DNA of 60,264 nucleotides. It comes from a virus. The translations under genes were made by a program, and so were the position numbers. Positions 4,200-60,264 of this stretch are shown piece by piece (position 1 is the first letter of the stretch; each line of letters begins with the position of its first letter). Under the pieces are notes generated by a model. That model saw only the letters and a list, made by a program, of their open reading frames with translations, was not told the origin of the DNA and did not search any database. Where the stretch lies: positions 1 through 60,264 of IMG/VR virus record IMGVR_UViG_3300035198_000074. One strand, written 5' to 3'.

Positions 4200-4210
4200 T
4201 ATAGAATAGG

Positions 4211-4308
4211 GTTGGCGGCCAATAGATTTATCGTTGCCGACAGGTAAACAAGGGTTTATAGGAAGTAAGATCGGCATCTTATAAATTCCTTGGCTATTGG
4301 CCGTCAAC
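4211..4308 (+). ncRNA. Predicted pseudoknotted intergenic RNA element, divergent type
   Basis: A 15-bp closing stem (one G-U) pairs 4211-4225 with 4294-4308. Inside, 4235-4240 (TGCCGA) pairs with 4271-4276. Within that loop 4249-4253 plus 4255-4260 (CAAGG, TTTATA) pair with 4280-4285 plus 4288-4292 (TATAAA, CCTTG), an 11-bp second stem crossing the first. This is the same closing-stem-plus-pseudoknot order as at 791-885, but the sequence is unrelated. It ends 13 bases before ATG 4322. Confidence 0.5.
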
Positions 4309-4321
4309 ACAAGAGGTTATC

Positions 4322-5751: not shown

Positions 5752-6482
5752 TATATGTTGATGATAGAGTAGGGAGTAAGGAACTTGCTGACTTGATAGA
5801 GGACAGTATCTTAGTGCACCTCGACTATGCCGATATTGCATTTGAGGGAAATGGGCCAAATGGAAAAGTCCAGATTGGTATTGAGCGAAAAACATGGGGA
5901 GACCTCATTAACTCCTTCAGGACAGGAAGACTCGTAGGACATCAGGTACAGGGGCTATTGGATAATTACCATAAAGTTTATCTGGTGTGTGAAGGCATTA
6001 TACGTGAGAACCAGAAGACAGGCGAGATAAATGAATGGAAGCATGGTAAATGGAAGAAGGTGGATTATTCTACATCAGAATCGGCAAGGAATAGATTTAA
6101 TTATTCGTCTATATGGAAACATTTGATTACACTGGAGAGTAAAGCAGGCATAGAATTGCGTTCTTCTTGGAATATGCAGGAGACTGCCCGGATGGCGGAA
6201 ATATTGTATGCCTGGTGGAGTAAGCCATGGGAAGCACATAAAAGTCATCTACAGCATTATAGCAGTATTCAGACTGCATTATTGCGACCCGATAAACCAT
6301 CCTGGCCAGTGCAGTTTGCCGCAAACCTGCCTGGATTTGGGTGGGATAGGGCGGTTAAGGCAGAAGCATATTTTGAAACTGTTCCCCGGATGATAGGTGC
6401 AAGTGAGCAAGAATGGAGAAAGGTAGAAGGGATAGGGAAGGTGTTGGCGAAAATGGCATGGGAAGCGTTGCATAAAGCATAA
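5748..6482 (+). CDS. ERCC4-domain structure-specific nuclease with HhH
   Basis: A 244-residue protein. The N-terminus (VDDRVGSKEL) and ERKTWGDL (about residues 47-54) match the XPF/Mus81 catalytic signature ERKxxxD, with an upstream Asp pair and a downstream strand VYLVCEG. The C-terminus (about 190-244: LPGFGWDRA and VEGIGKVLAKM) shows two helix-hairpin-helix motifs that bind branched DNA. The role is probably cleavage of flaps or Holliday-type intermediates during phage recombination, alongside Sak4 and the SSB candidate. Confidence 0.8.
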   Translation: MIYVDDRVGSKELADLIEDSILVHLDYADIAFEGNGPNGKVQIGIERKTWGDLINSFRTGRLVGHQVQGLLDNYHKVYLVCEGIIRENQKTGEINEWKHGKWKKVDYSTSESARNRFNYSSIWKHLITLESKAGIELRSSWNMQETARMAEILYAWWSKPWEAHKSHLQHYSSIQTALLRPDKPSWPVQFAANLPGFGWDRAVKAEAYFETVPRMIGASEQEWRKVEGIGKVLAKMAWEALHKA

Positions 6483-40160: not shown

Positions 40161-40270
40161 AACTTTTCCTCCTTAACTGACAAAAATTGTCAGGTATTAG
40201 TTGTCACTGACACCTACCAATGGTCAGTAATCAATGACCACTTACGAGATGCCAGTAATATGACCACTAA

Positions 40271-50212: not shown

Positions 50213-50253
50213 GTTATTTCTACCTTAACATACTTCGCCAGTTTTTCAAGGTA

Positions 50254-50630
50254 AATTTTTCACGCCAATTTTCCAAGGTAAATTTTGCATACCAGTTTTT
50301 CCAGGTAATTTTTGTCTCCTAAATTTTCCAAGCAATTTTGTCCACAGAAATTTTCCAGGTAAATCTCGCCCCCTAAATTTTCCCCCAGAAATTTTCAAGC
50401 ACAAATTTTTAGGCCCAATTTTCCAGGTAGAAATTTTTAGGCATAATTTTCTGGACAACAATTTTTCGCCTCATCTGCGAGGTAAGAATTTTTTGGCGTA
50501 TGCAAGACATAAGAATTTTCCGACCTACCTGCCTGGGCAGAATTTTTGCCCCATTTATTTGGACAGAATTTTTGCCCCATTTATTTGGGCAGAATTTTTT
50601 GGCGCATGGCATCTAACAGAATTTTTTGGC
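50254..50630. repeat. Phased AATTTT tandem array between terminase genes
   Basis: At least 21 AATTTT-type blocks (a few AGTTTT/AATCTC) start at 50254, 50267, 50281, 50294, 50307, 50322, 50334, 50349, 50362, 50376, 50390, 50404, 50417, 50432, 50445, 50460, then every 26-28 bases to 50620. The period is therefore 13-14 bases, with a 27-base super-unit (AATTTTCCAGGTA alternating with AATTTTTnnGCC). Frames across it are not preserved, so it is probably non-coding. A packaging (pac) or origin-type binding array is plausible. Confidence 0.75.
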
Positions 50631-50639
50631 GCATGGCGT

Positions 50640-50963
50640 AGAGTTGGATGGGGGGAGACCTTGTTACCATATATATGCTCCCCGACCCAAGGGGGGTATC
50701 CATGGTTTTTTGATTTCCCACTATTCCCATAGATATGGTATGGTATCCTATTTGTCATCATCACTATCCTCCCCCTTCACCTAAACAGGGTATGATAATA
50801 TCTAATTCTGTCTACTTTGACTATAATATCCAAATTAGAAACATACATTATTTTAATAAGTTACAATCCATAATTAAAGTAAATTGTTTTTCCACAATAA
50901 ACCTGCCCGCAAATCCTTTATTTCTGGGCTATGTAGACTTTGCATAGATGCCAAATCTATCTT
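50640..50963. other. Gene-free AT-rich stretch
   Basis: No convincing gene on either strand. One GGGGAG/CTCCCC inverted repeat lies around 50655-50685; the remainder is AT-rich with many TATAAT-like words but no clear promoter. It separates the repeat array from the small terminase gene. Confidence 0.4.
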
Positions 50964-51446
50964 TCATAAGTCAATTTCCTTGCGATCAGTGGCCCGGCGG
51001 GGCGGGATAACCTGGAGAATTATATCTCCTCCATCTTTACCGGTATGTTCCTGGACGTCCCTAAAACGTCCTTTTGCTTTGCCTAATAATTCCGCAAACT
51101 TAGCTCTGGCCGAAAAATCTGGCGTTTCCAGGGTATCAGTGATCTTGCCCCGGAATGTTGCAAAATTGAAACGTGTCGAATTTAAGCCTTCCTTTAATTT
51201 CTCGGCCAATAAATTATCGGAAAGTCCTTTGATTTCGAGAAGTTGGTCGAACTCAATATTAAGTTTCTTTAATCTTCCGTACCCGGCCACAGCCAGAGAC
51301 TGTCTATTTTTCGACATACTCCCAGCATGTTTTTCGCATTGCCAAAGTGGTTTGCCTTGTAAATAGTAGTCAAGGAAACGGCGGTCTTTAAGGCTAAGTT
51401 TGCGTGTACCTATTAGTTTGGGTATATCCGGCGGTGATAATGGCAT
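50964..51446 (-). CDS. Terminase small subunit
   Basis: A 160-residue protein with ribosome site TAGGAGGAGTATACATT. The N-terminal half is helical with LSLKDRRFLDYYLQGKPLWQC and a helix-turn-helix-like pattern. GLSDNLLAEKLKEGLNSTR followed by FRGKITDTLETPDFSARAKFAELLGKAKG is typical of phage small terminases. It recognises packaging sites on DNA. The array at 50254-50630, transcribed after it, is a candidate target. Base composition is richer in GC than that of neighbours. Confidence 0.75.
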   Translation of the reverse strand: MPLSPPDIPKLIGTRKLSLKDRRFLDYYLQGKPLWQCEKHAGSMSKNRQSLAVAGYGRLKKLNIEFDQLLEIKGLSDNLLAEKLKEGLNSTRFNFATFRGKITDTLETPDFSARAKFAELLGKAKGRFRDVQEHTGKDGGDIILQVIPPRRATDRKEIDL

Positions 51447-51470
51447 AATGTATACTCCTCCTAAGCAGTT

Positions 51471-51499
51471 AATATAGCATAATATTTGATGTTAGGCAA
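51471..51499 (-). promoter_or_regulatory. Late promoter before the small terminase gene
   Basis: On the minus strand, TTGCCT (51499-51494), a 17-base spacer, and TATATT (51476-51471) with TGC before it, forming TATGCTATATT. The same 11 bases form the -10 of the Tad2-like gene. The implied leader is under 25 bases. It would drive the packaging and head operon. Confidence 0.65.
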
Positions 51500-51712
51500 G
51501 GAGATAATGAGTAAATATAATTTTAGATGTTATTGGGCGCATACCGCAAAAATTGTTAGTTTGTGCATAAAATTTTTATCTTTTGTAGAATCAAGTAGTT
51601 AGGCGAGTTATCAACATTTCTACAGGACGTAAATTGTCAGTCTGATGTAAAATGCGACAAGTGACAAAGTTTGCGCTATTGAAATCATTGAGGATTTTTG
51701 TTTGGGGTTGGC

Positions 51713-52045
51713 ATGAGGGTTGCAGTATTAAATGTTATGAAAAATTTAATAAATCTCATTTACCAGCGGGCTGCGGAGCAAAACATAAAGATAGAGTCCG
51801 CACCCTCCCATCGAAGGGATAAAGACCATATTAGTGCAGGCCGCCGCTCGGTTACAATGCCGAATGGCAGAGTGTATGATTACAGGGACACTCTGATCGG
51901 CATTGGCCTGCGACTCAACCTGATAACTCAGGCTGAGTACGAGGAGGCGTTATTGCGCAATCCTCGTAATATGCGCTGCCCTCGATGCGGCAGGGTAACC
52001 GAGAAAGAGGTAGTAACCCAATTTGGGTACTGCCTAAATTGCTAA
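51713..52045 (+). CDS. Zinc-ribbon-tailed hypothetical protein
   Basis: A 110-residue protein from ATG 51713 (GGGG 5 bases upstream; longer starts lack a site). The body is basic and helical. The C-terminus CPRCGRVTEKEV and YCLNC is a zinc ribbon. It is the first gene of the rightward early block. Its DNA contains three nested stems at 51836-51911. Function unknown. Confidence 0.6.
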   Translation: MRVAVLNVMKNLINLIYQRAAEQNIKIESAPSHRRDKDHISAGRRSVTMPNGRVYDYRDTLIGIGLRLNLITQAEYEEALLRNPRNMRCPRCGRVTEKEVVTQFGYCLNC

Positions 52046-52055
52046 GGAGGAGAAA

Positions 52056-52478
52056 ATGAAAGTAATCGTACCACGGAAAGCAGAAGTAACGGTAAAACGG
52101 CCAGACGGGACGGTGGAAACCATCGTCCATCCTAAAATTGACTATTTTACCCCCGCACTTTTTGACCGTTTTCGGCAGGCAATGAAGGACGCTGGGCGAG
52201 GCGCAGCGCTTTCCTACCACAACATCGATGCGGTTGTCGAGATGGAAGAATCCGATTATCAAGGTCGCTGTGAGAGATGCGGTGCGAAGATTGATACTCG
52301 GAAAGCCTACTCCCAAAAAGAGTGGACCAGATTTGGTGGGCAGAAAGTTGGGGTAATCGCCCATTACTGTGACTCCTGCCATAACATTCTGACCACGGTT
52401 GGCGCCGGTGAAATCACAGACATGGAACATCGAGCTGGGTACGTCCCAAGCTACGAACCCTACACAAAGGAGGATTAA
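52056..52478 (+). CDS. Zinc-binding hypothetical protein
   Basis: A 140-residue protein with ribosome site AAGGAGGAGAAA. It opens MKVIVPRKAEVTVKRPDGTVE, has CERCGAKID and HYCDSCHNIL, and ends with an acidic tail. Four Cys and a His could bind zinc. Early nucleic-acid-binding role is possible; family not recognised. Confidence 0.6.
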   Translation: MKVIVPRKAEVTVKRPDGTVETIVHPKIDYFTPALFDRFRQAMKDAGRGAALSYHNIDAVVEMEESDYQGRCERCGAKIDTRKAYSQKEWTRFGGQKVGVIAHYCDSCHNILTTVGAGEITDMEHRAGYVPSYEPYTKED

Positions 52479-52482
52479 TATC

Positions 52483-52761
52483 ATGAAAAAAGGATGGACA
52501 AAAAAGTCATATGATGCGCTGTATTTTTGGATTGATACCACAAAGAGGCCGAAAGTGCGCGAAACTCTATTGCAGGACGGACTCAACGACATTGTAAGTC
52601 GCCTGGAGTCCGCCAAGAACCTCGGAGAATGGTATAAGATTACGCAGGAGGCTGCTGCCGCTGTTGGTCCTAGAGTTGTCGAAAAATCTGCAATGGAAGC
52701 GGAGTTAGCTCTTGATAAGGCCGCCGCTATCGGTCGCAAGGGAGGTACAATAAGAAGGTAA
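52483..52761 (+). CDS. Small helical hypothetical protein
   Basis: A 92-residue protein from ATG 52483 after AAAGGAGGATTAATATC. Helical, with an Ala-rich C-terminus (EAELALDKAAAIGRKGG) and Lys/Arg clusters at both ends. Its DNA includes a CGGACTC/GAGTCCG hairpin (52578-52612). Function unknown. Confidence 0.6.
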   Translation: MKKGWTKKSYDALYFWIDTTKRPKVRETLLQDGLNDIVSRLESAKNLGEWYKITQEAAAAVGPRVVEKSAMEAELALDKAAAIGRKGGTIRR

Positions 52762-52784
52762 AGGGTTGGCTGGATACCCGATAA

Positions 52785-52848
52785 CCAGCCCGTGTGGAGA
52801 TTAACCCACTCCGCACTCCACGAGACGGAGTGACACTTGACGGGTTGG
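52785..52848 (+). ncRNA. Predicted pseudoknotted intergenic RNA element, compact type
   Basis: Closing stem 52785-52793 (CCAGCCCGT) pairs with 52840-52848 (one G-U). Directly stacked, 52794-52799 (GTGGAG) pairs with 52816-52821. In its loop, 52807-52813 (CACTCCG) pairs with 52826-52832 (CGGAGTG) beyond, so the two inner stems cross. Same topology as at 791-885. It sits between two genes, 20 bases before the ribosome site of ATG 52875. Confidence 0.5.
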
Positions 52849-52874
52849 CCAGTACTCCTGGCAGGGAGGAGAAA

Positions 52875-53276
52875 ATGATAATTTATTTAAAAGGGGATCC
52901 CAGTTGGGATATCCCCAAGAATGATCTTGGCGGCCAAGCTGGCTCTGTAGAGAGACGGCCTGACCTTGATCGGGATGGGTACAGAGCTTATGCACTGTAC
53001 CGAGAAAGCCACAACTTTGGCTATCCCCACCCAATAGGTGGAGAAGAAGGCCGCCCTTGCTGCAAGTGCGGCCGCATAACTCCGGTAAGATTACTGGAGT
53101 TATGTCCTGAGTGTGAAGAGGAGCTCAACCTTTTAGAAGAGGTTGAGCTAAAACCCCACGTAAAGAAGTGGGGTAACGTGGAAGAGATTGCTGACCGGTT
53201 TTTACACCGGAAGGCAACTATAGGGGAACTTCGGGCCGCCGTAAATGCGGCCAAGAAGTCCTATAAGGGAGAGTAA
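52875..53276 (+). CDS. Zinc-ribbon protein encoded by hairpin-rich DNA
   Basis: A 133-residue protein from ATG 52875 (CAGGGAGGAGAAA). It has CCKCGRITPVRLLELCPECEEE, a zinc ribbon, near residue 60, and a basic helical end. The DNA contains a chain of perfect or near-perfect stems, for example at 52893-52916, 52978-53001, 53075-53104, 53122-53149 and 53153-53174, plus GAGAGT/ACTCTC at the stop. Coding is supported by the ribosome site and ribbon; a dual RNA role cannot be excluded. Confidence 0.55.
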   Translation: MIIYLKGDPSWDIPKNDLGGQAGSVERRPDLDRDGYRAYALYRESHNFGYPHPIGGEEGRPCCKCGRITPVRLLELCPECEEELNLLEEVELKPHVKKWGNVEEIADRFLHRKATIGELRAAVNAAKKSYKGE

Positions 53277-53304
53277 AACTCTCCTAAAATTTAGAGGTTA
53301 GAGG

Positions 53305-53402
53305 CTCCCCGTAAAGCCTCGACTTAGGCTTCAGCCTCGCCGTGTGGGTGATAGGTTGAAGCCTATTTTTTTATTTAGCTGTCCTATCGGCCATACGGGG
53401 AG
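53305..53402 (+). ncRNA. Predicted pseudoknotted leader with terminator-like stem
   Basis: Closing stem 53305-53313 (CTCCCCGTA) pairs with 53394-53402. 53325-53333 (TAGGCTTCA) pairs with 53357-53365 and is followed by seven T, like an intrinsic terminator. 53350-53355 (GATAGG) within that loop pairs with 53383-53388 beyond it. Competing hairpins GAGGCT/AGCCTC (53301-53320) and AGGCT/AGCCT exist, as in attenuators. It precedes the 53420 gene by a short ribosome-site region. Confidence 0.55.
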
Positions 53403-53419
53403 AGAGGGAGATGACATAA

Positions 53420-54019
53420 ATGAGAACGTTAATTGTCAAATATCAAGGTACATGTAAAAAATGCGGTAAAACTTTAGATATTGGCGAACAAGCTATGTAT
53501 AAAAAATCTATGGGTATTTTTTGTATTGGATGCGAACCCAAAGAAATTGAAGAAATAAGAGCCTTTAGATTGGCTAAGGCTGAAGCGAAGGCTGAGCGGT
53601 ATAAAGAATGGGCAGAAAAAAGAGAACAAAAAGCTTTGGCTCAATTAAATAGCAACCCAGAAATAAGGCATGACTGGGCTTTTATTACTCAACCTGGGTA
53701 TATCCCAACGAGAGCCCGAATGATACAAGCCGATAATAAGGCACATGAAAGTTTACATATTGCTAAAGAAATGAGAAATAAAGCCGAAAATTTACTAAAT
53801 GTTAGGGTTGCGGGAGATGCCGAAAGAAATAGAGAAATCAAAAGACAAGCTAATGATGCGCTCATAACAAAAGGCTCAAAAGTCTATGATCCTGTTTTCG
53901 GGGAAGGAATAGTTTTAAGTATCCATAAAAAATCTTACCGTATCCAGTTTAATACTAAAAGTAATGATGGCCAATTGTTGGTTTATGCCAGGGATAAGAG
54001 TTATATTAAACCATTATGA
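53420..54019 (+). CDS. Zinc ribbon plus DUF3560-like helical protein
   Basis: A 199-residue protein. CKKCGKTL and FCIGCEPKE form an N-terminal zinc ribbon. A long charged helix follows (AKAEAKAERYKEWAEKREQKA), then PTRARMIQADNKAHESLHIAKEMR, which resembles the DUF3560 region. The C-terminal ~55 residues look like a small beta domain (YRIQFNTKSNDGQLL). Probably a DNA-associated early protein. It is the first gene after the candidate attenuator at 53305. Confidence 0.5.
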   Translation: MRTLIVKYQGTCKKCGKTLDIGEQAMYKKSMGIFCIGCEPKEIEEIRAFRLAKAEAKAERYKEWAEKREQKALAQLNSNPEIRHDWAFITQPGYIPTRARMIQADNKAHESLHIAKEMRNKAENLLNVRVAGDAERNREIKRQANDALITKGSKVYDPVFGEGIVLSIHKKSYRIQFNTKSNDGQLLVYARDKSYIKPL

Positions 54020-54082
54020 ATAAGAAATCACTTTTAACTATAGACGGCCCGGCATAACACCGAGGCGAAAGGAGATAATACC

Positions 54083-54700
54083 ATGTATAATAAAGAAAAT
54101 TTTACAGTGGCCAAAGTAGCGTCAAAAGACGAACAAAGATATAGAATTAATTCTATCTATTGTCATCCCAAGTATACAGTTGGATGTGATGGCTATGCTC
54201 TAATGATTGTGACAGCCCCAAAAGTGGATATAAAAGATATGCCTACACCGCCTGAAGGTGAACTTACAGATAAATTTGAACCTTTCTTGCTGGATTTAAA
54301 TGACGCCAAAAAGGTCGAAAAGTCTATTCCTCAAAAGGTAACGTTTCCAACTCAAAAACATGCAGCCATTATTAAAACCAAAAATGATAATGCTTTTGCT
54401 AAGATATTTACGACTGATCTCCAAAGTCAAAACATTACAGTATCAAAGAAAGTTGAGGGTGAATATCCTCAATTTGGCAGGGTGTTTCCTAAAGGTAAAC
54501 CTGTAAAGACAATCCGAGTGCAAACTAAATTACTTAGAAACTTACTCAGTGCCATTGAAGAGGCCCAAGGACCGGCAAAAATGCCTTATGTTGATCTCCA
54601 AATATATGATAATGAAGAAGGGCCTATTAGGTTAAGCTCCATCAACCAGAACACAAATCAAAAGATTACAGCCGTATTAATGGCAATGAAAAAAATATAA
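54083..54700 (+). CDS. Sliding-clamp-like (DnaN-fold) protein
   Basis: A 205-residue protein with ribosome site GAAAGGAGATAATACC. The C-terminal half (TIRVQTKLLRNLLSAIEEAQG, VDLQIYDNEEGPIRLSS, NQKITAVLMAMKK) resembles the last domain of beta clamps, and the N-terminal half is strand-rich with a VGCDGYALMIV segment. It is about half the length of bacterial DnaN. It may tether a host polymerase, since no phage polymerase is seen. Confidence 0.6.
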   Translation: MYNKENFTVAKVASKDEQRYRINSIYCHPKYTVGCDGYALMIVTAPKVDIKDMPTPPEGELTDKFEPFLLDLNDAKKVEKSIPQKVTFPTQKHAAIIKTKNDNAFAKIFTTDLQSQNITVSKKVEGEYPQFGRVFPKGKPVKTIRVQTKLLRNLLSAIEEAQGPAKMPYVDLQIYDNEEGPIRLSSINQNTNQKITAVLMAMKKI

Positions 54701-54721
54701 AGAGATAGGAGAAAATAAGGC

Positions 54722-54829
54722 ATGATAATTCTTAAGGGTTTTATCGCTGTCATCCTTGAACCTTTTGCAGCATCACTGCTAATCGTTATACTGCAAGTCA
54801 TTATAAACCTGCTGGAAGGAGGTGATTAA
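54722..54829 (+). CDS. Very small membrane protein
   Basis: A 35-residue protein, largely one hydrophobic helix (FAASLLIVILQVIINLL). Site AGGAG lies about 11 bases upstream. It ends one base before the next gene's ATG, and its last codons contain that gene's ribosome site. Function unknown. Confidence 0.45.
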   Translation: MIILKGFIAVILEPFAASLLIVILQVIINLLEGGD

Positions 54830-54830
54830 A

Positions 54831-54959
54831 ATGAAAGAAATAATCATAATTGAGCTATCAGAATCAGACAAAGAACAAAGCTCAGAAATAGTTAGGACAA
54901 TTGAAGAGCTTTTAGCAGGAAAAATCTCATATGATGAGATTCGAGTAGTAAAGTTATAA
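54831..54959 (+). CDS. Small hypothetical protein
   Basis: A 42-residue protein with ribosome site GGAAGGAGGTGATTAAA. It shows a beta-alpha-beta pattern (KEIIIIELSE, EIVRTIEELLAG, YDEIRVVKL), so it is a plausible small folded protein. Family not recognised. Confidence 0.55.
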   Translation: MKEIIIIELSESDKEQSSEIVRTIEELLAGKISYDEIRVVKL

Positions 54960-54960
54960 G

Positions 54961-55053
54961 ATGCAATTAAAAGACTATGGTGAAATCAATAATGATACGA
55001 AAGAGGAAACAGACCCTCAACTTAATCTCAATATTATAAAAGGAGGTGAGTAG
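54961..55053 (+). CDS. Very small hypothetical protein
   Basis: A 30-residue frame starting one base after the previous stop. It lacks its own ribosome site, and its 3' end provides AAAGGAGGTGAG for the next gene. It could be a coupled leader rather than a functional protein. Confidence 0.35.
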   Translation: MQLKDYGEINNDTKEETDPQLNLNIIKGGE

Positions 55054-55054
55054 C

Positions 55055-55198
55055 ATGGGAAAGTGTCATTACTGTGACCTATGTGGAAAAATTACTTGGG
55101 TTCTTTATGATATTATTACAATAGACGGCACAATTATCTCAGTCTGTAGGGAGTGCTTTTACGCAACCCCTATCGACAAGGTTGAGATTGGTAACTAA
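55055..55198 (+). CDS. Zinc-ribbon protein
   Basis: A 47-residue protein with ribosome site AAAGGAGGTGAGTAGC. It has CHYCDLCGK near the start and VCRECF later, a compact two-knuckle zinc fold. Function unknown. Confidence 0.6.
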   Translation: MGKCHYCDLCGKITWVLYDIITIDGTIISVCRECFYATPIDKVEIGN

Positions 55199-55240
55199 TA
55201 ACATCCTCAATCAAATATTATGATAAAGGGAGGTGACATT

Positions 55241-55495
55241 ATGAGTGATTTCATAATGACCAATGTAAATTATTATCCTAAAGTTGGGGACCAGGTATCA
55301 GGCATGGCAGGCAAAAGACTTGTGTCTGGCAAAGTTATTGCTTCAAAAAGAAATCCGCTGAAGCCTGCTATTTTTAGCCGGCATGGATTTGTAGGGCTTT
55401 ACATTCTCTGCGAAGATGGAAAGCAGAGAGTGATTAATGAAGTATGCCCTAAAGATACAAATGAGAGAGTAACCTTTATTTCGAGGAATAGATAA
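55241..55495 (+). CDS. Small beta-rich hypothetical protein
   Basis: An 84-residue protein from ATG 55241 (AAAGGGAGGTGACATT). It has [28 protein letters not shown], the spacing of a small SH3/KOW-like barrel, and then [14 protein letters not shown]. It may bind nucleic acid or protein. Assignment to a family is not possible. Confidence 0.6.
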
Positions 55496-55499
55496 GAAG

Positions 55500-55649
55500 A
55501 TGTATAAAATTTATTTGAAAGGTGAAGTAATTGGCTTTCACCCCATATATTGTGGCTGCTTGCATGAGAAAATCAAGGTATTGTTATTCTTTGCAAGCCT
55601 CATGCGAGACTATGAAAATATTTGGCTTTGCGCAATAAAAATACCTTGA
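55500..55649 (+). CDS. Doubtful small gene overlapping a structured RNA
   Basis: A 49-residue frame ([19 protein letters not shown] onwards) with a weak ribosome site. Two of the crossing stems of the element at 55544-55694 lie inside it, so either the RNA or the peptide may be the real product. Confidence 0.3.
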
Positions 55650-55694
55650 CAAAAGTAGATTTCTATTGTAAAAGGTCATCATTCAATTCATATG
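55544..55694 (+). ncRNA. Possible pseudoknotted RNA element, loose version
   Basis: 55562-55568 (GCATGAG) pairs with 55599-55605, and 55573-55582 (TCAAGGTATT, 10 bp) pairs perfectly with 55640-55649, so the stems cross. An outer stem of 55544-55552 with 55684-55694 (CATATATTG/CAAT-ATATG, two-base bulge) encloses them. Spacings are longer than in the other elements. It precedes the ribosome site of ATG 55718. Confidence 0.4.
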
Positions 55695-55717
55695 AAACTC
55701 CCGAAAGGAATACTTTC

Positions 55718-55876
55718 ATGAAAGATCGAATATGTCCCCATTGTGGATTAGCAAATCTAAAATATCGCTTGACCTGCCAAAAATGCGGCGAAAGATTATC
55801 TCCTAAAAGTACAAAATTATTCTCCCCTAAAAAGATAAAGGCATTTGGTAAACGATTGCAACAAACCGAACAATAA
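55718..55876 (+). CDS. Zinc-ribbon protein
   Basis: A 52-residue protein from ATG 55718 after GAAAGGAATACTTTC. CPHCGLANLKYRLTCQKCG is a typical 16-residue zinc ribbon, followed by a basic tail. A longer upstream extension is unlikely because it lacks a ribosome site. Confidence 0.6.
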   Translation: MKDRICPHCGLANLKYRLTCQKCGERLSPKSTKLFSPKKIKAFGKRLQQTEQ

Positions 55877-55945
55877 GAAAGGATCCTCTTTTGACCTCTC
55901 ACACCCTCGCCAAATCTATTCAATCTATCCAGAAAGGAGAAAAGC

Positions 55946-56380
55946 ATGGAAAAGATATTTCATGTTAAGGGAGAAATATTTGAACAAATTGTCATTTTCC
56001 CTGATTATATTGAATGCAGAAATGGAACAATGTCAGTGGTGCTCCTGCCAGAAGATATTGGGTGCATTGATTATTTTAATGGTCAATTGTGCCAAGATAC
56101 TGAATGCAGGCATCATATTCATTGCATTGAACTTGGCAATTGTGTATTAAATAATGAAAAAGAAATGACCCTTGAAGAGATAGGGGAAGTAATGGGGTTT
56201 TCAAGAGAAGCGGCCAGGTTAAATGAAGCGCAGGCTTTATTCAATAGTAAAAAGAAGCTAAAAATCATGAATAAGCGTCTTGTTTGGGGTACATCTGATT
56301 TCATTGACACATATGATGAATGGCCGCCATATAATCGTATACCTAAATATCTAACAAGGGAGAGAAAATTTGCCCGCTAA
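55946..56380 (+). CDS. Sigma-region-4-like regulatory protein with Cys cluster
   Basis: A 144-residue protein. The N-terminal half has several Cys/His (CQDTECRHHIHCIEL). MTLEEIGEVMGFSREAARLNEAQAL (about residues 85-109) matches the helix-turn-helix of sigma-70 region 4. Such phage proteins may redirect or modulate host RNA polymerase. Ribosome site AGAAAGGAGAAAAGC. It ends overlapping the RecB-like gene by 11 bases. Confidence 0.65.
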   Translation: MEKIFHVKGEIFEQIVIFPDYIECRNGTMSVVLLPEDIGCIDYFNGQLCQDTECRHHIHCIELGNCVLNNEKEMTLEEIGEVMGFSREAARLNEAQALFNSKKKLKIMNKRLVWGTSDFIDTYDEWPPYNRIPKYLTRERKFAR

Positions 56381-57011
56381 ATTGGATGGTAATTTTTACG
56401 TAATAAATGGTAAGAAATATCCTCGATTATCGGCAATTGTGGAGCAAGTACCTAATATTGCTCTGCGCAATTGGAAAAAGCGGGTAGGGGAAGATGCAGC
56501 AAGGGAAATAAGTGAGGAAGCCTCTACCTGGGGCAGTAAAGTGCATAAGATTACGGAATATCATGATCATCAAGATTGTATAAAAATTGATGATATGTTG
56601 AATGAAATTGGAGGCAAAAATCTTCTTATACCTTTACTTGCGTGGGAGTCATGGGTAGAAAAATTTGTAAGCAAATGGGTCGCTATTGAGAAGATTGTAT
56701 GGTCAGAGGAGTTAAAGGTAGCTGGTACAATAGACCGAGTTGGAAGGCTTAAGGGAGATAAGTGTCTATCTATTTGCGATATTAAGACAGGGCATTTATA
56801 TGATGAGATAGGGATTAAGTTATTTGGGTATCGCCTCATGTGGAATGAGAGAAATCCTAAGAGAAAAGTGACAAGATGTTTAGCGGTGAATTTGCCCAGA
56901 GAATCTCCTGGGGAAGTAAAAATTAGGGAGTATATTGATAATAGCAAGAATCATTATGAGGAAAGATTCAGGCAACTCTGCAAAGATTACCATGCATTAA
57001 TAGGGAATTAA
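56370..57011 (+). CDS. PD-(D/E)XK exonuclease, RecB/Cas4-like
   Basis: A 213-residue protein starting at TTG 56370 (GGGAGAG upstream). It has YPRLSAIVEQVP, WGSKVHKITEYH, then AGTIDRVGRLKGDKCLSICDIKTG: the TIDR Asp and DIKTG Asp-x-Lys of the PD-(D/E)XK nuclease fold. FGYRLMWNE is the typical late helix motif. It probably resects DNA ends for Sak4-mediated annealing. The following small gene starts exactly at its stop. Confidence 0.75.
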   Translation: MPAKLDGNFYVINGKKYPRLSAIVEQVPNIALRNWKKRVGEDAAREISEEASTWGSKVHKITEYHDHQDCIKIDDMLNEIGGKNLLIPLLAWESWVEKFVSKWVAIEKIVWSEELKVAGTIDRVGRLKGDKCLSICDIKTGHLYDEIGIKLFGYRLMWNERNPKRKVTRCLAVNLPRESPGEVKIREYIDNSKNHYEERFRQLCKDYHALIGN

Positions 57012-57205
57012 TGAAAGTCACAAGGCTCATTTGTTATGAAGGGGAAGATGAGTGGATTCGCAAGACCCTCGAAAAGTCATTACTTAAGAAGATAGGAATA
57101 AATTTCCGAGTGGGATTTAACACGATTAAATTACTAAAGGAGGAAGTATATGGAGATAATCAAGGAAGCGGGAAGAATATTGAATCTGAAAATGAGTGGG
57201 GATAG
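57011..57205 (+). CDS. Small phage protein
   Basis: A 64-residue protein starting at the previous stop. It reads MKVTRLICYEGEDEWIRKTLEKSL, a pattern I recall from short phage proteins near recombination genes. Its 3' end overlaps the next gene by 56 bases in another frame. Confidence 0.5.
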   Translation: MKVTRLICYEGEDEWIRKTLEKSLLKKIGINFRVGFNTIKLLKEEVYGDNQGSGKNIESENEWG

Positions 57206-57626
57206 CTGGGTAAGGGAAGCGGCCCCTATTTTAGTGGAAATAGTAAAGGAAGTAAAAGAATTGGAAACTCGAAAGAAGGAGGAATCGGAACCTTTTAGGG
57301 TTCAGATCAATGATATTGCCTCCAAATATAAGCCAGCCCTCGAACCTCTGCAAGAAATTGAGGCAAAATATAGAGAGAGGATGGTGAAAGAAGCGGAAAG
57401 TGGGGAGAGTGTTGCTTGCGAAAACGGGGGAAAGATTGCCTTTGCCGATTCGTGGAAATATCGGGTGGTGGATTTTGCCAAAGTGCCTAAAGAATTGCGG
57501 ATGGAAGTAGTGGATGATAAGGCAATTAGGGATATGATTAAGAAAGGGATAAGAAATATTAAGGGCATTGCAATTGAACAGGTAAGACAATTGAGGGTAT
57601 TTACAAAGGAGGATATAAATGAGTAA
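57150..57626 (+). CDS. Coiled-coil phage protein, Gam-like by position
   Basis: A 158-residue protein with ribosome site AAAGGAGGAAGTAT. A long helical first half (ILVEIVKEVKELETRKKEES) is followed by YKPALEPLQEIEAKYRERMV, then KYRVVDFAKVPKELRMEVVDD and IRDMIKKGIRNIKGIAIE. Proteins with such a plan sit beside phage recombination nucleases and may protect DNA ends or inhibit host nucleases. The exact family is not certain. Confidence 0.55.
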   Translation: MEIIKEAGRILNLKMSGDSWVREAAPILVEIVKEVKELETRKKEESEPFRVQINDIASKYKPALEPLQEIEAKYRERMVKEAESGESVACENGGKIAFADSWKYRVVDFAKVPKELRMEVVDDKAIRDMIKKGIRNIKGIAIEQVRQLRVFTKEDINE

Positions 57627-57804
57627 ATATGGACATATTATAGCATTAAATGCTATTTTAGCTGTTCTGGCTATATCTATCATTGCTTCTGCCTACCCCA
57701 AATTCATTGAATTGGTAAATGTGATGTGGGGATGCTTCGCCATGACTGTATTGAATTGTGTTATTTTGTTAATGATAACAATAGACCATGAAATTAAAGG
57801 ATAA
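57619..57804 (+). CDS. Small two-helix membrane protein
   Basis: A 61-residue protein with ribosome site AAAGGAGGATATAA. Two hydrophobic segments (LNAILAVLAISIIASAYPK and FAMTVLNCVILLMITI) are separated by a short loop, so it is a helical hairpin in the membrane. Function unknown. Confidence 0.6.
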   Translation: MSKYGHIIALNAILAVLAISIIASAYPKFIELVNVMWGCFAMTVLNCVILLMITIDHEIKG

Positions 57805-57860
57805 GAAATGAGACTATTGAGTAAAGTACCAAAAATCAAACGAAAGGAGGCGACATAAAA

Positions 57861-58070
57861 GTGGATAGTATAATTGAAATGTATGAAAATGCTATTGATG
57901 TAGATACCGAAGGAAATCCTACGCATATAGAAGGATATTACCGAATATGTAAAGGATGCGGAATAAAAAATAAGGACACAGACACACATTGCACTTTATG
58001 TGGTTCTGGATTATACCCCCCAAAGAGGAGACTTTCTCTAATTGAGAAAGTTCAAAAGATATTCAAATGA
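57861..58070 (+). CDS. Zinc-ribbon protein
   Basis: A 69-residue protein from GTG 57861 (AAAGGAGGCGACATAAAA). CKGCGIKN and HCTLCGSGLYPPKRR form a zinc ribbon with a following basic segment. Its stop overlaps the next ATG (ATGA). Confidence 0.6.
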   Translation: MDSIIEMYENAIDVDTEGNPTHIEGYYRICKGCGIKNKDTDTHCTLCGSGLYPPKRRLSLIEKVQKIFK

Positions 58071-58225
58071 GTAAGGTCCAAGCATCTAAGCGTGCAAGAC
58101 ACCATAAGCGCCTGGGCCTGCACCATCCAAGTCATGTACCAGGCAAGGCATGGCAAAAGTTTGTGCAAAATAAGATGAAGGCATTGAAGGAAAGTTACCC
58201 AGATTGCATATCGCATAATGCATAG
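58067..58225 (+). CDS. Small basic protein ending inside a heptamer repeat
   Basis: A 52-residue His/Lys/Arg-rich protein (RHHKRLGLHHPSHVPGKAW), coupled to the gene before it. Its last codons (DCISHNA) and stop lie in the first three units of the 7-base repeat, so changes in repeat number would alter its C-terminus. Function unknown, possibly nucleic-acid binding. Confidence 0.55.
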   Translation: MSKVQASKRARHHKRLGLHHPSHVPGKAWQKFVQNKMKALKESYPDCISHNA

Positions 58226-58274
58226 GGCATAATGCATGATGCATATGGCATAATGCGTAATGCATATTGCATAA
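58205..58274. repeat. Ten tandem heptamers (TGCATAN type)
   Basis: 70 bases divide exactly into ten 7-base units: TGCATAT, CGCATAA, TGCATAG, GGCATAA, TGCATGA, TGCATAT, GGCATAA, TGCGTAA, TGCATAT, TGCATAA. The array ends directly at GGAGATAGCAAA and ATG 58287. Palindromic ATGCAT cores allow many local hairpins. Confidence 0.9.
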
Positions 58275-58286
58275 GGAGATAGCAAA

Positions 58287-58469
58287 ATGAAGGATTTACT
58301 TCTCGGTATTATCATTGGTATTCTTGCTACATCCTTATCCTTTATGCTTATTTTCCAACAGAATCAGATTAGCACGCTCCAAGAGAAGCAAAAATCTATT
58401 ATTAAGGATGTGGATAGTTTGGCGTTAAAAATAGGGCCTCTTCATGTAGATAAGAAGGGAAAGAAATGA
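58287..58469 (+). CDS. Membrane-anchored coiled-coil protein
   Basis: A 60-residue protein. An N-terminal hydrophobic helix (LLLGIIIGILATSLSFMLIF) is followed by a polar helical tail (QNQISTLQEKQKSIIKD). The ribosome site GGAGATAGCAAA directly abuts the heptamer array, so expression could vary with repeat number. Confidence 0.6.
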   Translation: MKDLLLGIIIGILATSLSFMLIFQQNQISTLQEKQKSIIKDVDSLALKIGPLHVDKKGKK

Positions 58470-58531
58470 TGAAAATACCTTTTTTCAGATTCAAACATAG
58501 ACTTTGGAATACCAAAGAAGAAAGGAGGATA

Positions 58532-58756
58532 ATGATGGTTGGTATTGAAGACATTACTTTTTATGTAGAGATAGTAACTGGTTTAAAAGAAAACTTTCCT
58601 GAGCTTGTCCTTACTGAATCCTTCTTTGTGTTTCCTAAAACCGTAGAAGAAATACAAGAAAAGTATCAAGAATTATTAGATAGATTGGGATTAAAAGTCA
58701 AAAGAATAGCAAGGGTGAGATTGAAGGAGTTGAAAGAGAATGAGAATAAAGAGTGA
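58532..58756 (+). CDS. Small helical hypothetical protein
   Basis: A 74-residue protein from ATG 58532 (AAAGGAGGATA); a longer frame from 58466 lacks a good site. It has IEDITFYVEIVTGLKENFP and KTVEEIQEKYQELLDRLGLKV, then a basic/acidic end. Family not recognised. Confidence 0.55.
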   Translation: MMVGIEDITFYVEIVTGLKENFPELVLTESFFVFPKTVEEIQEKYQELLDRLGLKVKRIARVRLKELKENENKE

Positions 58757-58913
58757 AGACGTGGATCAGCTTCTGCTAAAAGAATTAGCAGACCTGATAC
58801 ATAATACAGCAGAGTTGCAAGGTTGGGGATGTTACCACCCTGGAGCTGGCTTAAGTTGTTGTATAGGAATGGCAAGAGTGATTATTAAATTTTTTGAGGA
58901 GAGAAAGAAATGA
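58740..58913 (+). CDS. Small Cys-containing protein
   Basis: A 57-residue protein overlapping the previous gene's end. It reads VDQLLLKELADLIHNTAELQG, WGCYHPGAGLSCCIG, then a basic helix. The GLSCC stretch may bind metal. The frame is well supported by composition, although the ribosome site (GAAGGAG) lies 8-10 bases away. Confidence 0.5.
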   Translation: MRIKSEDVDQLLLKELADLIHNTAELQGWGCYHPGAGLSCCIGMARVIIKFFEERKK

Positions 58914-58978
58914 AGAAACTTGAAGAAAACTGTAACCAGCCTGGGGTGCGCCATGAGGAGGCCGAGTCAGATGCGTGA
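58910..58978 (+). CDS. 22-residue upstream peptide, possible leader
   Basis: A short frame from ATG 58910 (GAGGAGAGAAAGAA upstream) to TGA 58978, overlapping the start of the next gene at 58971. It may merely couple translation of that gene. Confidence 0.3.
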   Translation: MKKLEENCNQPGVRHEEAESDA

Positions 58979-59258
58979 TAGAGAATATGAATTGATTAAT
59001 TGTATCAAGGAGATGGTTAACCAATTTGCCTATCAGTTGGATAATCCTCCAAGGATAACCACTGGTGGCTTAAGTGCCTTAGAGACGGCTTTCGATATTT
59101 TGGGATATTCAGATCCAGAGCCAGCGCCTGAGAGAGGATGTCAGTATGGGAAATGTCAAAGGTTTGCTACCTGTGGCGTACCAACGAAAAGCGGCTACAA
59201 GTTTGTGTGTAATAAGCACTTTAGAAAACTGTATAAGAGGTATGCAGGTCGGAGGTGA
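58971..59258 (+). CDS. Zinc-binding hypothetical protein
   Basis: A 95-residue protein from ATG 58971 (GGAGG 9 bases upstream, inside the short leader frame). It has a helical N-terminus and GCQYGKCQRFATCGVP with FVCNKHF, a Cys/His cluster. Its last codons (YAGRR) are the 5' arm of the RNA element at 59244. Confidence 0.55.
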   Translation: MRDREYELINCIKEMVNQFAYQLDNPPRITTGGLSALETAFDILGYSDPEPAPERGCQYGKCQRFATCGVPTKSGYKFVCNKHFRKLYKRYAGRR

Positions 59259-59321
59259 AAGCCATTCTCCGTCATTAAATGCAGGAACAACGATATCAGT
59301 GGAGAATCCTGCCCGACCTAT
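59244..59321 (+). ncRNA. Predicted pseudoknotted intergenic RNA element, copy 3
   Basis: 59246-59252 (AGGTCGG) pairs with 59313-59319 (extended by a C-A mismatch and a G-U). 59264-59270 (ATTCTCC) pairs perfectly with 59301-59307, and 59281-59285 (GCAGG) within that loop pairs with 59308-59312 (CCTGC). Arms match copies 1 and 2; inner stems are new sequences with the same order. Followed by AAGGAG and ATG 59342. Shorter remnants of the 3' arm lie at 59521-59536 and 59689-59712. Confidence 0.55.
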
Positions 59322-59341
59322 CCTATTGGAAGGAGAAAAAG

Positions 59342-59512
59342 ATGGTTAAAGTAATTTGTGAAATGACGCAATGTATCTATTATATCCATAAGCCTGAAGA
59401 TGGAGAAGCCTATCAACATCAATGTGGAAATGATGAAATAGAAATCGGGTATGGTGGCCAATCAGCCTCTGGAGATGTTGCCAAATGCTATACTTTTGAA
59501 GAAAAGGAATAG
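59342..59512 (+). CDS. Small Cys-containing protein
   Basis: A 56-residue protein from ATG 59342 (GGAAGGAGAAAAAG). MVKVICEMTQCIYYIH with later QCGNDE and KCYTFEE gives four Cys at spacings that could bind metal. Function unknown. Confidence 0.55.
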   Translation: MVKVICEMTQCIYYIHKPEDGEAYQHQCGNDEIEIGYGGQSASGDVAKCYTFEEKE

Positions 59513-59552
59513 GAAGAAATTCTGCCCGACCTGCCTTAAATGAAAGAAAAAA

Positions 59553-59675
59553 ATGTTTGAAGAATTATTTACTGATAAAGAATTGGAAATTATAGATGAG
59601 ATAACTCAAGATATGGAGCCAGAGACAAAGCTGGCAACCGTATTTTTAATTGCTATTAAGGAAGGTAGGCTCTGA
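59553..59675 (+). CDS. Small helical protein
   Basis: A 40-residue acidic helical protein (MFEELFTDKELEIIDEITQDM). It follows a remnant of the RNA-element 3' arm (TGCCCGACCTGCC) at 59522. The ribosome site (GAAAG) is poor. Function unknown. Confidence 0.45.
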   Translation: MFEELFTDKELEIIDEITQDMEPETKLATVFLIAIKEGRL

Positions 59676-59728
59676 GGAGGAGTTGGTGGCTATCCTGCCA
59701 GTCCTGCCTTAATGAAAGGAGGTAATTT

Positions 59729-59929
59729 ATGTGTGATTCTACTCATGCTCACTTACAAGTTCCCCCCTGTCCAGAAAGTTATGATGGGAGACACGAATAT
59801 CTGGTCGACATCAGGACACAACTCAAATCAGAGATAGAAGATGAAATTAGTGTTGGATTAGTGTGTGTTTGTGGAGCGAGAGCAAGAGCATATTATAAGC
59901 TTGTAGAGATTAGTGAAGGGGAAGTGTGA
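59729..59929 (+). CDS. Hypothetical protein
   Basis: A 66-residue protein with ribosome site GAAAGGAGGTAATTT. It contains MCDSTHAHLQVPPCPESYDGRH and VGLVCVCGARARAYY, with Cys and His that may form a zinc site. Another truncated RNA-element arm precedes it. Function unknown. Confidence 0.55.
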   Translation: MCDSTHAHLQVPPCPESYDGRHEYLVDIRTQLKSEIEDEISVGLVCVCGARARAYYKLVEISEGEV

Positions 59930-59968
59930 GCCGTTTGGATCGACATTGTGGGGAGTCGATCAACGGCT
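59929..59968 (+). promoter_or_regulatory. Stable hairpin before a ribosome site
   Basis: 59929-59935 (AGCCGTT) pairs with 59962-59968 and 59938-59944 (GATCGAC) with 59955-59961: 14 bp with a TG bulge and a 10-base loop. It begins at the stop of one gene and ends before AAAGGAG and ATG 59987, the same context as the pseudoknotted elements, but is a simple hairpin. Confidence 0.7.
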
Positions 59969-59986
59969 AAAAGAAAGGAGAAGAAA

Positions 59987-60151
59987 ATGGAAGAAAGAAG
60001 ACTTTATTTTTATCCCGACATTGAAAGAATTCTTGATAGATATGGAGAGCAAGAAGGAAAGGACGAGTTAGTTGAAAGATTGTTATTATATTTAGCATCC
60101 TTAGTTAGTGACAAAAAAGAAGAGAAGGTTGAAGAAGATGGAAGCAAGTGA
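59987..60151 (+). CDS. Small helical hypothetical protein
   Basis: A 54-residue protein from ATG 59987 (AAAGGAGAAGAAA). It is charged and helical (LYFYPDIERILDRYGEQEGKDELVERLLLYLASLV). Its last 14 bases overlap the start of the membrane-protein gene repeated from position 203. Function unknown. Confidence 0.6.
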   Translation: MEERRLYFYPDIERILDRYGEQEGKDELVERLLLYLASLVSDKKEEKVEEDGSK

Positions 60152-60264
60152 AATTGAACAAGCACGTAAGAAACAATACATTCACAAGCGTGCAGAGGAC
60201 ATTAGAGCAAGTTGGTTATTGTTCTGTCTGGTTGGAATTCCCGTCTTAATTGTTTATCCTTTCT
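60138..60264 (+). repeat. Terminal direct repeat of 203-329 (second copy of a membrane-protein gene start)
   Basis: All 127 bases equal 203-329. The bases before the repeat differ (GAAGAAG here, GGAGAAA there), so the identity begins precisely at the ATG. The length and position suggest an assembly overlap where a circular genome closes into an internal junction. Confidence 0.9.

Follow-up and report, generated by a model that had tools for sequence, protein, structure and literature searches.

A 64-nt intercistronic element with crossed pairing potential in an early operon of a phage, and the ways in which it might fold

Does a short gap between two genes of a phage early operon carry an RNA with crossed stems, or complementary words that pair in some simpler way or serve no function at all? 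The question is raised by E1, a 64-nt element (52785-52848, plus strand) in the early operon of a 60,264-base phage record, which is the whole stretch analysed here and to which we refer as the window. E1 occupies most of a 113-nt intercistronic gap, between an upstream stop that ends at 52761 and the next ATG at 52875. An earlier note on this DNA had described three stems of 9, 6 and 7 bp within the 64 nt, the first two directly adjoining, and they are present exactly so, with 44 of the 64 nt paired when all three are drawn. The features of the locus are:

52483-52761, plus strand: upstream gene, 92 aa, of unknown family (five-sequence alignment)
52762-52874, plus strand: intercistronic gap holding E1, 113 nt, from the stop of the ORF at 52483-52761 to the ATG at 52875
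52785-52793, plus strand: stem A, 5' strand, CCAGCCCGU, pairing with 52840-52848 (9 bp, one of them G-U)
52794-52799, plus strand: stem B, 5' strand, GUGGAG (6 bp), abutting stem A
52807-52813, plus strand: stem C, 5' strand, CACUCCG (7 bp), containing the first CACUCC copy (52807-12)
52814-52819, plus strand: second CACUCC copy, a nested competitor of stem C that pairs with 52827-52832
52816-52821, plus strand: stem B, 3' strand, CUCCAC, partner of GUGGAG
52826-52832, plus strand: stem C, 3' strand, CGGAGUG, partner of CACUCCG
52840-52848, plus strand: stem A, 3' strand, ACGGGUUGG, partner of 52785-52793
52863-52870, plus strand: Shine-Dalgarno region of the downstream gene, AGGGAGGA, as read in the sequence
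52875-53276, plus strand: downstream gene, 133 aa, with sub-threshold zinc-ribbon similarity

Stems B and C cross each other and both are enclosed by stem A, with linkers of 0 nt (A-B), 7 nt (L1), 2 nt (L2), 4 nt (L3) and 7 nt (C3'-A3'). The ORF boundaries derive from a simple gene caller that misplaced some starts; a GTG at 52794 was weighed as an alternative, earlier start for the downstream gene and rejected, because it is in frame and open but has no Shine-Dalgarno sequence by eye.

The crossed pairing potential of E1 exceeds chance. When the 113-nt gap was shuffled with dinucleotides preserved, 2 of 1500 sequences matched the summed stacking score of its three stems (-44.9); in a larger run on the same gap, with 8000 shuffles of each kind, 11 did so with dinucleotides and 20 with trinucleotides preserved. 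Likewise, among 8000 shuffles of each kind of the 46-nt interior of stem A, the crossed pair was matched by none that kept dinucleotides and by 12 that kept trinucleotides. Scanned on both strands for compact arrangements, the 60 kb yielded E1 as the sole site at -36 or lower, in agreement with the earlier claim that it is the tightest example of its topology, under loop limits that were modelled on E1 after it had been seen and are hence post hoc. With whole-window shuffles, the same scan gave at least one match at -36 in 14 of 40 cases, and at -44 or lower in 1 of 40. A looser sliding scan yielded 29 sites in the window, among which E1 ranks fourth, behind 4211-4308 and both strands of 53305-53402. 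The shuffle tests and scans thus uphold statistically the topology, its compactness and the existence of other examples; the result for E1 is a pairing potential, not a fold.

The window contains 47 gaps of at least 55 nt. Nine of them were dropped; the 38 that we tested are same-strand and no longer than 240 nt, and each was taken together with 35 nt of upstream sequence. Four of the 17 plus-strand gaps (that of E1, 53277-53419, 59259-59341 and 4200-4321) reached a shuffle p of 0.01 or lower, each with 0 of 200 shuffles, as did two of the 21 on the minus strand. Besides E1, the significant plus-strand gaps hold the following elements:

53305-53402, plus strand: E2, same topology, downstream of the same gene (52875-53276); 0/600 and 0/200 shuffles
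59246-59319, plus strand: E3, same topology; 0/200 shuffles, B3'-C3' linker of 0 nt
4211-4308, plus strand: E4, same topology, with a 15-bp stem A; 0/200 shuffles, B3'-C3' linker of 0 nt

Loop geometry differs among the four, E1 and E2 being of the classical H-type and E3 and E4 being without a B3'-C3' linker. Stem B of E2 has a U run behind it, in the manner of a terminator; with its stem UAGGCUUCA/UGAAGCCUA, the U run and a long competing downstream pairing, E2 looks like an attenuator or a terminator/antiterminator pair, and it is absent from the listing of a terminator scan that allowed only loops of 3-8. In a fifth plus-strand gap (792-903, holding E6), the three-stem score was matched in 4 of 200 shuffles. 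E6 (792-884) and E7 (1266-1366) have the stem A of E3 and can be drawn in the same topology, but we rejected them as support because their crossed pairs are at chance (41/200 and 26/200, respectively); the three-stem arrangement of E7 was not found in a tested segment that cut its 5' arm. Separately, a late-region gap on the minus strand (40161-40270) shows crossed potential matched in 1 of 200 shuffles, with an MFE z of -3.4.

This recurrence was compared with coding segments and with gaps from other phages. None of 86 coding segments was significant at 0.01, and 4 of 86 were at 0.05, so that the excess in plus-strand gaps over coding segments is clear (4/17 vs 0/86, Fisher p 0.0005). A first comparison set from other phages, namely lambda, a Vibrio phage, a Rhizobium phage and the IMG/VR loci L005 and L003, had 2 of 62 gaps significant at 0.01; in a second set, from loci that carry a relative of the ATPase of this phage, 5 of 79 were. 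Gaps of either set scoring above -27 were assigned p=1 without shuffling. These 7 of 141 indicate a base rate in phage gaps of about five times the nominal one, and the excess over the gaps of other phages is modest, both for plus-strand gaps (4/17 vs 7/141, Fisher p 0.019) and for all gaps in the window (6/38 vs 7/141 at 0.01, p 0.034).

Our preferred reading, held tentatively and at slightly less than an even chance, is that E1 belongs to an intercistronic mRNA leader of the early operon and makes up its structured core, with a compact fold that acts in cis. We favour it because of the position of E1, within an operon, after one stop codon and before the following Shine-Dalgarno sequence, and because of the dominance of stem A, which prevails over the other pairings in the gap when the folds are nested (P 0.56-0.99 across ensembles from six contexts). 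The RNA would adopt one of two folds, or perhaps switch between them: an H-type pseudoknot with stem A as its cap, or a nested three-way junction. In either case it would act in cis on the downstream zinc-ribbon-like gene. Two routes may be envisaged: E1 could present a recognition site to a protein close to the start, as happens with gp32 of T4, or it could set a processing or decay boundary. Simple sequestration of the Shine-Dalgarno sequence by the stems of E1 was rejected as the mechanism, because, in a 166-nt context, 52863-70 is unpaired with P 0.42-0.46 under each constraint placed on the upstream stems (the 5' hairpins, A, A+B, A+C or none).

As a model for the first route, the available text of PMC535899 describes the gene 32 translational operator of T4 and RB69 as an autogenous pseudoknot 5' of the Shine-Dalgarno sequence that nucleates protein binding; it spans ca. 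28 nt, lies beside UUAAA/UAAA repeats and has a protein shown to bind it. Like this operator, as far as that text describes it, E1 is a candidate pseudoknot in a phage intercistronic region, 5' of a Shine-Dalgarno sequence and in the same orientation to the downstream gene; unlike it, E1 is a putative pseudoknot of 64 nt with an extra enclosing stem A and no known binder. The stretch between E1 and the start (52849-52874, CCAGUACUCCUGGCAGGGAGGAGAAA) contains no UUAAA/UAAA repeats and, for this reason, E1 cannot be counted among the gene 32-type operators, although by analogy it is possibly an H-type pseudoknot that acts like one.

The closest rival concerns the crossed interior of E1, not its role as a leader. 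In this alternative, which we regard as a serious possibility if not the expected outcome, two ordinary hairpins (52792-99/52809-16 or GUGG/CCAC, plus 52814-19/52827-32) are enclosed by stem A in a nested three-way junction, and the crossing arises incidentally from the repetition of the CACUCC/GGAG words. The lowest nested energy of the 64-mer (-27.5) is unusual (z -3.64, matched in 3 of 1500 shuffles), which indicates that nested core structure also explains part of the signal. The hairpin 52814-19/52827-32, formed by the second CACUCC and GGAGUG, makes up the majority of the nested ensemble (P 0.69-0.82), and stem C reaches P 0.08-0.12; the nested interior is favoured because CACUCC occurs twice, at 52807-12 and 52814-19. 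The nested P of stem B, 0.0, is uninformative on the pseudoknot, since B and C cannot coexist in nested models. For the pseudoknot, a crude estimate that uses penalties after the Dirks-Pierce and DP09 parameter sets gives -23.5 to -24.5, that is, 3-4 kcal/mol weaker than the nested junction, with an error that we judge comparable to this difference. An L3 of only 4 nt, spanning a 6-bp stem, also counts against the pseudoknot. Conversely, a by-product of repeated words sits poorly with the rarity of the crossed score in trinucleotide shuffles, whether of the gap or of the interior, and the nested energy of the gap is unremarkable (z 0.12 with the 35-nt extension, z -1.33 alone), so the crossed potential does not simply reflect a strongly folded region. 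The crossed fold proposed in the earlier note is therefore well supported in nested folding as regards stem A, but its B/C interior is only a candidate, over which the crude estimate slightly favours nested pairing. The plain hairpin that the note had named as the sign of a merely nested structure, GGCUGG/CCAGCC, is weak (P 0.001-0.073), but another one, 52814-19/52827-32, dominates the nested ensemble. Within the leader reading, we consider a crossed and a nested interior to be at about even odds.

It is rather unlikely, though far from negligible, that E1 holds no selected RNA structure and represents chance complementarity, with no function, in a GC-richer and probably imported stretch at ca. 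51.7-53.4 kb. The GC content is 0.47-0.52 in the 500-base windows of 51750-53499, vs 0.35-0.41 in those of 53250-55250, and the relatives of the upstream gene occur in differing contexts, with E1 missing wherever downstream sequence exists. These relatives come from five distinct IMG/VR contigs (L003, L004, L006, L007 and L012), where L008-L011 denote the first four contigs again. E1 was not found at L003, L004 and L012, which have other sequence downstream, and the contigs L006 and L007 stop at the relative itself. Furthermore, E1 has p ~0.0014-0.0025 as one among 38 tested gaps, and the gaps of other phages also exceed the nominal rate. The shuffles, however, preserve local composition, and the recurrence in four plus-strand gaps also argues against chance.

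The wider searches retrieved no homologue of E1, either by DNA or via the flanking genes, in the records and contigs searched, and this weighs against the leader reading. There was no nucleotide match to E1 in 50,697 phage records and no match to the exact B/C pattern in IMG/VR. In a terminase relative (L005), no E1 equivalent was seen in the region before its terminase, with 0 of 4 scored gaps at p of 0.01 or lower, and the ATPase relatives (L016-L038) gave no sequence match past 15-18 nt. One of their gaps, L037 18047-18114, contains a hammerhead ribozyme-like sequence, which scores 22.9 bits with Rfam Hammerhead_1, below the gathering threshold of 34 (E 0.002 for a 251-base search). The downstream protein compares with Pfam PF07191 at E 0.083, below the cut-off; its gene has one weak viral relative, L002, and no relative was confirmed in genome contigs. 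In L002, tRNA-like termini (GCGGCGG...CCGCCGCACC, 6215-6350) flank a long insert in which ARAGORN calls no tRNA.

The upstream gene is the second of a two-gene cassette (52056-52761), encoding a zinc-ribbon-like protein of 140 aa and the 92-aa protein, whose contexts differ among the loci L003, L004, L006 and L007, the first with the second gene only. A promoter-like sequence, TTGACAAACC, lies upstream in these four loci and was not seen, by eye, before the copy in the window. The four aligned relatives and L012 have a C-terminal KGGRP-type tail that the copy in the window is without; the idea that E1 is a remnant of this lost tail was discarded, because three-frame translation of the gap shows no resemblance.

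We think it improbable that the repeated words in the gap (CACTCC twice, GGAGTG, GTGGAG and GGGTTGGC twice) are operator or recombination sites that act as DNA and not as RNA. By eye, there are three CACTCC half sites in two orientations, GGGTTGGC is found at 52763 and again at 52842, and the ESAS repeats of cluster K mycobacteriophages were thought by their authors, in the available text of PMC3203893, to be DNA-binding sites rather than mRNA hairpins. Against this, E1 is inside the operon: a promoter-like site lies ~1.25 kb upstream, and the gap itself has no such site listed. The G-U pair in stem A, moreover, suits RNA and breaks a DNA palindrome.

SAS/ESAS are described in the available text of PMC12699233 as repeats with inverted arms beside the starts of non-structural genes, with published spacers of 4-13 bp. 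The window has five start-associated repeats of its own (868-898, 1350-1380, 59307-59337, 59519-59549 and 59693-59723), which overlap or abut Shine-Dalgarno sequences. Their tails, with a consensus near TGCCCGACCTNCCTTAATGAAAGGAG, gave nhmmer E values of 1.8e-8 to 7.4e-7, inflated because the profile was built from these same five copies, with the next match at E 2.8; the exact tail pattern had no match in IMG/VR, leaving out the record of the window. Three of the five, those of E3, E6 and E7, have an inverted 5' arm (at 59243, 792 and 1266, respectively) and a long spacer. The five repeats resemble the SAS/ESAS of cluster K in layout, as far as these are described there, whereas their sequence is different and their spacers are far longer than 4-13 bp. 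E1 is not one of them, as the five-repeat profile had no match near 52.8 kb among matches up to E 50. Other repeats in the window include an exact one of 127 nt (203-329 = 60138-60264), which joins the contig end to position 203 and not to position 1; bases 1-202 possibly represent an alternative branch in a circular assembly. Additionally, 50240-50650 contains degenerate AATTTT(T) repeats with varied spacers and, in part, a period of ~26 nt.

Finally, it is very improbable that E1 belongs to a known class of RNA (ribozyme, riboswitch or type III antitoxin) and is too diverged to score: stem-enclosed pseudoknots exist in known compact RNAs, but Rfam gave 0 matches at gathering in the window, and permissive scans of 51400-53500 and 52700-60264 retrieved nothing at E1. 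No tRNA or tmRNA was found in the window. The twister ribozyme and the THF riboswitch are H-type pseudoknots capped by a closing stem, and E1 is similar to them in its order A B C B' C' A'; in contrast to them, it has no known conserved core, no A-B linker and no Rfam match.

The cis-acting leader thus remains our preferred reading of E1. A broader proposal, in which a dispersed set of intercistronic pseudoknots, unrelated in sequence and alike in topology, would serve as fold-only leaders of early genes, with their shape maintained and one shared factor recognising them all, seems a long shot to us. Our search of the open-access literature, in the texts available, found no report of recurrent intercistronic pseudoknots in DNA phages. 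If E1 folds as drawn, it would be a pseudoknot domain of 64 nt, small enough for crystallography or NMR, and would provide a clean test of how phages control individual genes inside long early operons. Should several gaps of one phage keep their shape and not their sequence, they would constitute a regulatory layer in phages that is missed by sequence-based RNA families.
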